39,983 bases of DNA, from positions 57,456-97,438 of the forward strand of contig PAVV01000004.1 in the NCBI GenBank assembly GCA_002713185.1, written 5' to 3'. This document shows, in pieces, positions 21,398-22,730 of this stretch. Every line of letters begins with the position of its first letter. Positions within the stretch are counted from its first letter, which is position 1. The stretch is from Methanobacteriota archaeon. Its GTDB lineage: Archaea; Thermoplasmatota; Poseidoniia; Poseidoniales; Thalassarchaeaceae. The notes under the pieces were generated by a model that had not been told where the DNA came from, made no database searches, and saw only the letters and a program-made list of their open reading frames with translations. The translations under genes and the position numbers were made by a program.

Positions 21398-22252
21398 ATG
21401 GAAGATGTGAGTACCAAGATTACGATTGGGCATTCTCCCGATCCGGATGATGCATTCATGTTCCATGCACTTACTGAGGGATCATTCGATACACAAGGGA
21501 GAGTTTATGAGCATGCCCTGGTAGACATCGATACTCTCAATTCTCATGCGGAAAACGGTGATTTCGAAGTATCCGCATTGAGCATACACTCATTTCCAAA
21601 TGTTTCTGAAAAATATGCGTTGATGAATTGTGGTGCCTCGATGGGAGAGGGTTATGGCCCAATTGTAATTTCGAATAGGAAAATGTCTATCGAAGAATTA
21701 AGAGAATGTGTGATAGCGGTTCCCGGTAAGAGTACCAGTTCATATCTAGCATTACTATTGGCTATTGGTGAAGTCGAGGCTATAGAGGTCCCATTCGATG
21801 AGATTCTGCCAAAGGTAGTGAATGGTGAATTAGACGCAGGAGTAATAATTCATGAAGGTCAACTAACATGGAAAGCAGAGGGTGCCGAGCTAGTAATCGA
21901 TCTTGGCCTGTGGTGGAGAGAAGAAACTGGACTCCCCCTCCCACTTGGAGGCAATATAGTTAGGAGAGATCTCGGCATAGAATTGTGTGAATCCATATCT
22001 TCGGATATCAAGAAAAGTATCGAGTATTCACTGTCGAATCCAGATACGGCATTGGAATTTGCAAGGAAGTGGGGAAGAGGAATAGATTCAGAAACTAATG
22101 AGAAATTCGTAAGAATGTACGTTAACCAGAGAACCATAGACTATGGAGAAGATGGTAGAAAGGCCGTTAGGATGTTTCTCGAAAGGGGCAAGGAAATTGG
22201 TCTAGTGAGGGCGGACTTCGATACAGATAAAATTGAGTTCATAGGTGAGTGA
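21398..22252 (+). CDS. mqnD: 1,4-dihydroxy-6-naphthoate synthase (MqnD)
   Basis: Enzyme of the futalosine menaquinone pathway that splits cyclic dehypoxanthine futalosine to 1,4-dihydroxy-6-naphthoate. The 284-residue protein has a periplasmic-binding-protein-like fold. The opening GHSPDPDDAFMFHAL corresponds to the family's SPCPNDTFMF, VIIHEGQLT contains the catalytic-site His, and LGLWWREETGLPLPLGG is diagnostic. The ATG at 21398 is used. The downstream hydroxylase-like gene overlaps the stop by 8 bases or starts 4 bases after it. mqnA and mqnE lie just beyond on the opposite strand. Confidence 0.88.
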   Translation: MEDVSTKITIGHSPDPDDAFMFHALTEGSFDTQGRVYEHALVDIDTLNSHAENGDFEVSALSIHSFPNVSEKYALMNCGASMGEGYGPIVISNRKMSIEELRECVIAVPGKSTSSYLALLLAIGEVEAIEVPFDEILPKVVNGELDAGVIIHEGQLTWKAEGAELVIDLGLWWREETGLPLPLGGNIVRRDLGIELCESISSDIKKSIEYSLSNPDTALEFARKWGRGIDSETNEKFVRMYVNQRTIDYGEDGRKAVRMFLERGKEIGLVRADFDTDKIEFIGE

Positions 22253-22256
22253 TTTT

Positions 22257-22730
22257 GTGAGTGAAAAACCAGAAGTAAGCGAGTTTGGGTCTGTCGATCC
22301 GGCCCCCGCCAGTGAGTTCAAAGAAGTACCTAAATTACGGGAAATTTTGTGTGATGAGAACGAGAGAATGTTCCAAAGGATGAGGTCATTATTCGCCTTA
22401 AGAAATATCGGAGGGGGAGACTCTGTTGACGCTCTAGCAAAAGCCTTCGACTCTGACTCTGCCTTGCTCAAGCACGAGATTGCCTATGTTCTTGGACAGA
22501 TGCAAGATGATCGAGCGGTACCATGTTTGATAGAAAGATTGGAGGACCTAAAAGAAGATTTGATGGTTAGGCATGAGGCTGCAGAGGCCCTGGGTGCGAT
22601 AGGAAACAGGACTGCAATGTCTACATTGGAGAAATTCGTAGATGATGAAGAGCCAGTAATTGCGGAATCTTGCGAGGTTGCAATTGATCTCCTAAACTGG
22701 GTTTCGGGCAAGAAGCTTGATTATTCATGA
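22257..22730 (+). CDS. Half-length deoxyhypusine hydroxylase-like HEAT-repeat protein
   Basis: A 157-residue HEAT-repeat protein closely matching the C-terminal half of eukaryotic deoxyhypusine hydroxylase (DOHH) as I recall that sequence. Shared blocks include SVDPAP, RSLFALRNIGG, SALLKHEIAYVLGQMQ, MVRHEAAEALGAIG and ESCEVAIDL. The two His-Glu pairs (KHE and RHE) are those that bind iron in DOHH. The full enzyme has four such pairs, two per half, so this protein would need to dimerise to make a diiron site. The GTG at 22257 has GGTGA eight bases upstream; a GTG at 22245 is the alternative. Known DOHH substrates are eIF5A-type proteins. Activity here is inferred. Confidence 0.78.
   Translation: MSEKPEVSEFGSVDPAPASEFKEVPKLREILCDENERMFQRMRSLFALRNIGGGDSVDALAKAFDSDSALLKHEIAYVLGQMQDDRAVPCLIERLEDLKEDLMVRHEAAEALGAIGNRTAMSTLEKFVDDEEPVIAESCEVAIDLLNWVSGKKLDYS

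Follow-up and report, generated by a model that had tools for sequence, protein, structure and literature searches.

The window analysed here, a stretch of 39,983 nucleotides, lies on contig C4 in a metagenome-assembled genome of the class Poseidoniia (Marine Group II; 1.35 Mb, 72% complete). It holds an intact open reading frame (ORF) for a protein of 157 amino acids, homologous to half of deoxyhypusine hydroxylase (DOHH) and encoded between mqnD and a convergent mqnA-mqnC pair (Table 1). The GTG start codon is preceded, 9 nt upstream, by a sequence resembling a ribosome-binding site, and a second in-frame GTG is found at 22245. An upstream stop codon closes the frame, and thus no N-terminal half is attached; a second half of DOHH was not found in the genome at its present completeness of 72%. 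When relatives were looked for across the contigs of this genome, the gene proved to be single copy.

Table 1. Features of the half-size DOHH locus, in window coordinates
Feature	Position	Strand	Evidence
mqnD-like gene (futalosine menaquinone pathway)	21398..22252	+	PF02621, E 9.5e-68
AGGTGA, probable ribosome-binding site of the 22257 start codon	22242..22247	+	Read from sequence
Half-size DOHH homologue, four HEAT repeats	22257..22730	+	phmmer, AlphaFold, Foldseek
SVDPAP segment, residues 12-17; human linker just before C half	22290..22307	+	Alignment
His73-Glu74; human H56-E57 and H207-E208	22473..22478	+	Invariant in 48/48
Gly80; human G63 (by alignment) and G214	22494..22496	+	Invariant in 48/48
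His106-Glu107; human H89-E90 and H240-E241	22572..22577	+	Invariant in 48/48

Among solved structures, human DOHH is by far the best match to the archaeal protein (phmmer E 9.3e-74); the best single domain of the other HEAT proteins shown reaches about 52 bits, versus 132 for DOHH. Human DOHH searched against the archaeal genome returned this ORF as its sole match (E 2.1e-38, 47% identity), making the two reciprocal best hits, and a profile built from 41 relatives recovered human DOHH with an E value of 7.3e-97. The first-pass annotation had proposed a half-size relative of DOHH, and both the kinship and the size are borne out by phmmer, the reciprocal search and the closed frame; homology to the DOHH lineage is as good as certain. 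It had further held that the protein matches only the C-terminal half of the enzyme, which is not so: the C half of human DOHH aligns with 132 bits and 47% identity, and the N half with 116 bits and 45%. The SVDPAP segment, the two His-Glu pairs (KHE and VRHE) and the ESCEVA tail that it had listed are all in the ORF, yet only SVDPAP is particular to the linker ahead of the C half.

Pfam and NCBIfam label the ORF as HEAT_2 and HEAT_PBS, with NblB or CpcE appearing below threshold only (43.8 bits against a phycobilin lyase/NblB cut-off of 300, and 30.6 against 330). Taken at face value, these labels would describe a generic HEAT or phycobilin-lyase-like scaffold with no catalytic role. However, human DOHH itself receives the same generic HEAT labels from Pfam, which may explain how the archaeal gene was missed by annotation. 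The HEAT_PBS proteins (the phycobilin lyase CpcE, NblB and MTH187) have the HEAT fold and the generic labels in common with the ORF, but their matches in sequence and fold are far weaker than that of DOHH. A plasmid search returned generic Rhizobium HEAT proteins only, and the one examined lacks the paired His-Glu motifs. Given this and the gap between 52 and 132 bits, a non-catalytic scaffold is very improbable; best hits to generic phycobilin-lyase proteins, which the first-pass annotation had named as fatal to its proposal, did not materialize, human DOHH ranking first in both sequence and structure.

The AlphaFold model of the ORF (pLDDT 93, pTM 0.85) consists of eight helices forming four HEAT repeats, and its top Foldseek match is the human DOHH structure 4d4z (E 2.6e-11, TM 0.85-0.87 on the query). 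The alignment, with 47-48% identity over 144-147 columns, covers one half of the human enzyme, whose HEAT-repeat fold the model reproduces; the next-best matches, at E 2.8e-5, are designed HEAT proteins. Human DOHH and yeast Lia1 have HEAT repeats, the SVDPAP segment and an ESCEVA-type tail in common with the archaeal protein, at 45-47% identity. They differ in that a single polypeptide holds eight repeats, which form a symmetric dyad, whereas the archaeal protein is a single four-repeat half that, judged from its sequence, would have to dimerize.

The di-iron centre of human DOHH comprises H56, H89, E90, H207, H240 and E241, and the deoxyhypusine side chain is held by E57, E90, E208, E241 and two glycines, all established by mutagenesis (PMC9117371). 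One of these glycines is printed as G65 in that review; by our reading, the alignment points to the glycine of LGQ, residue 63 in the N half of the human enzyme. We aligned 46 dereplicated archaeal sequences with the two human halves (48 sequences in all). H73, E74, G80, H106 and E107 are invariant throughout, so that each archaeal chain has one set of iron ligands (H73, H106 and E107) and one set of substrate residues (E74, E107 and G80). Like each human half, the archaeal protein has two His-Glu pairs and the substrate glutamate and glycine, and the spacing between the histidines is 33 residues in every case (H73-H106, H56-H89 and H207-H240). Because a chain holds half of the full ligand set, two chains would be needed, which is the basis for proposing a homodimer. 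SVDPAP is invariant in 41 Poseidoniia sequences.

Of the 293 Poseidoniia genomes, 193 carry the gene; outside the class, it is present in nine genomes from six other Thermoplasmatota families, at 40-55% identity. Every intact archaeal copy is half-size; two apparently longer copies (L061 and L062) are frame read-through in high-GC DNA and not fusions. A collection of 84,980 species yielded 242 related stretches under the motif used. Among the best 80 of these 242, every stretch whose title names a group comes from Thermoplasmatota, almost always from Poseidoniales or Marine Group II; the remainder have generic archaeal titles. The relatives surveyed are those from Thermoplasmatota genomes and these best 80. 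A viral or phage origin was rejected, as no relative was found in IMG/VR or among phages. In comparisons with congeners, dS is saturated and dN is approximately 0.15-0.19 (L005 and L006, which are out of register, were excluded). Two one-residue indels distinguish the copies in the L054-L062 alignment, one before the first His-Glu pair and one before the second; at both, Poseidoniia, family f31 and the two human halves agree, and most non-Poseidoniia copies differ.

Recognizable remnants of the gene persist in four Poseidoniia loci (L155, L157, L159 and L162), and possibly in a fifth (L163), in each case just after an intact mqnD and in its orientation. In L157, the first ~25 residues, including SVDPAP, are kept before the frame runs into unrelated sequence. 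No recognizable copy follows mqnD in L156, L158, L160, L161 or L164. Repeated loss in situ, with the flanking genes retained, shows that the gene is dispensable in Poseidoniia; in yeast, DHS (deoxyhypusine synthase) is essential and DOHH is not (PMC5178350).

The position between mqnD and mqnA, with mqnD adjoining the gene in nearly all Poseidoniia loci, might be taken to mark the protein as a menaquinone biosynthesis factor. Against this, the gene is kept without mqnD in L019, L113, L038 and L099, decays elsewhere while mqnD stays, and has unrelated neighbours outside Poseidoniia. Since each gene is lost without the other, we reject a functional link to menaquinone: the two-way uncoupling largely refutes it and makes such a role extremely improbable. 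As a separate observation, mqnD, and in some cases also mqnC, is missing from an otherwise conserved menaquinone cluster in L019, L032, L113 and L144, which suggests loss of the futalosine pathway there.

To place the archaeal protein relative to the eukaryotic enzyme, we compared it with the two human halves, which are 38.8% identical to each other. Mean archaeal identity is 44% with the N half and 47% with the C half, and for 45 of the 46 archaeal sequences the identity to both human halves is higher than that between the halves. At columns that distinguish the two halves, the archaeal consensus has the C-half residue 22 times and the N-half residue 15 times (p 0.32). In a maximum-likelihood tree with human as the sole eukaryote, the two halves do not group, but their branches are very long (~3 changes per column) and no suitable outgroup is available; a single clade of human halves is not rejected (p-AU 0.32).

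These data bear on the suggestion, also raised in the first-pass annotation, that the gene is a horizontally acquired fragment encoding the C half of a eukaryotic DOHH. The slightly stronger C-half match, the occurrence of SVDPAP before only the C half in human and the ungrouped human halves would be in keeping with such a transfer. On the other hand, the excess of C-like consensus positions is not significant, a common clade of the human halves is not rejected, the archaeal proteins are close to both halves, and the family is deep in Thermoplasmatota and never full length. A fragment is accordingly disfavored, and we consider it improbable. SVDPAP may have been present ancestrally and then disappeared from the N half, or it may be a mark of C-half affinity. 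The nearness to both halves fits a form that predates the duplication, although the polarity is not proven; descent of the two-half enzyme from an unduplicated form represented by the half-size archaeal DOHH is likely but unproven.

The substrate pathway is present as well. A gene for aIF5A with the modification peptide PGKHGSAK, including the target lysine, is encoded on the same contig, and the genome has a canonical DHS gene; both had been singled out beforehand as a check on the assignment. The same peptide is reported to be modified in Haloferax, hypusine has been shown chemically in Sulfolobus acidocaldarius, and mostly deoxyhypusine was seen in the Euryarchaeota tested in older work (PMC5178350). 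We found no report of hypusine in Poseidoniia in the open-licence literature. A HEAT_2 search of control genomes gave matches in Haloferax and Methanosarcina and none in S. acidocaldarius; as the latter contains hypusine, the Sulfolobus hydroxylase is probably something other than a half-size DOHH.

The reaction catalyzed by DOHH needs O2. Heme-copper oxidase subunit I (COX1) is encoded in all nine non-Poseidoniia Thermoplasmatota genomes that have the DOHH gene, compared with 68 of approximately 254 genomes overall. The hypergeometric probability of this co-occurrence is approximately 5e-6 at the genome level, 3e-6 for genera and 1.6e-4 for families; the totals at all three levels are estimated from genome numbering, and the genus and family levels remove relatedness only partly. 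An oxidase accompanying every non-Poseidoniia copy fits the O2 dependence of DOHH. The reverse does not hold, as many oxidase-bearing genomes lack the gene, including those of family f27, which may be Thermoplasmatales. Older work found deoxyhypusine, not hypusine, in Thermoplasmales (PMC5178350). Family f3 (same class) has COX1, and no DOHH copy was found in its genomes searched.

Taken together, homology, half size, fold, conserved residues, wide maintenance and the co-presence of aIF5A, DHS and an oxidase form the observed part of our reading, and we think it probable that the gene encodes an unduplicated protein of the DOHH lineage, acting as a homodimer in the hydroxylation of deoxyhypusine on aIF5A. 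Two identical chains would pair like the two halves of the eukaryotic enzyme, with a di-iron centre held by H73, H106 and E107 from both chains and the deoxyhypusine side chain held by E74, E107 and G80. DHS would build deoxyhypusine on aIF5A at PGKHGSAK, and the half-size enzyme would then hydroxylate it with O2. The homodimer, the iron, the substrate and the reaction are all inferred, and function on aIF5A in this form appears likely.

The protein could also be a DOHH-type di-iron HEAT hydroxylase with a different substrate, for instance another protein lysine or a polyamine. No neighbouring gene ties it to aIF5A or DHS in the loci compared, and the gene can be lost. The polyamine genes are unusual too: an AdoMet decarboxylase (SpeD-like) gene directly precedes a second, divergent DHS-family gene outside the window (G000:C7:28079-29371, minus strand; L002, L154), which keeps the SWGK lysine motif, and no spermidine synthase was found in the 72% complete genome, a combination that makes an alternative polyamine route possible. 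However, invariance extends beyond the iron ligands to the deoxyhypusine-binding residues, only one protein is known as a substrate of human DOHH, and an aIF5A carrying the target peptide is encoded here, so that a different substrate is unlikely.

Hypusine is known from some archaea, where the enzyme for the last step is described as missing and a DOHH is stated never to have been identified (PMC5178350, PMC6105217, PMC8153317), in agreement with the earlier remark that such an enzyme is not well established; DOHH has even been called absent from archaea and bacteria (PMC3306375). Our own survey of open-licence papers turned up nothing relevant on an archaeal DOHH, although one may have been described since in other literature. 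Human DOHH and yeast Lia1 are eukaryotic, whereas the half-size homologue is encoded in archaea.

If hydroxylation of aIF5A by the half-size protein is correct, it would supply the missing last step of hypusine formation for Marine Group II, which ranks among the most abundant archaea of the plankton. The protein would also offer a minimal homodimeric di-iron hydroxylase for study, with the natural losses in sister genomes as built-in controls, and allow a test of whether the eukaryotic enzyme originated by duplication and fusion. We regard as evenly balanced the broader scenario in which aerobic Thermoplasmatota retain an unduplicated homodimeric DOHH, the eukaryotic enzyme arose from it by duplication and fusion, and the last hypusine step is archaeal in origin and was repeatedly lost, alongside archaea that make deoxyhypusine only. 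A hypusine route with no separate DOHH has been proposed for Trichomonas vaginalis, whose bifunctional DHS/DOHH, as cited in PMC6105217, is built on the DHS fold and is unrelated to the archaeal half-size protein.
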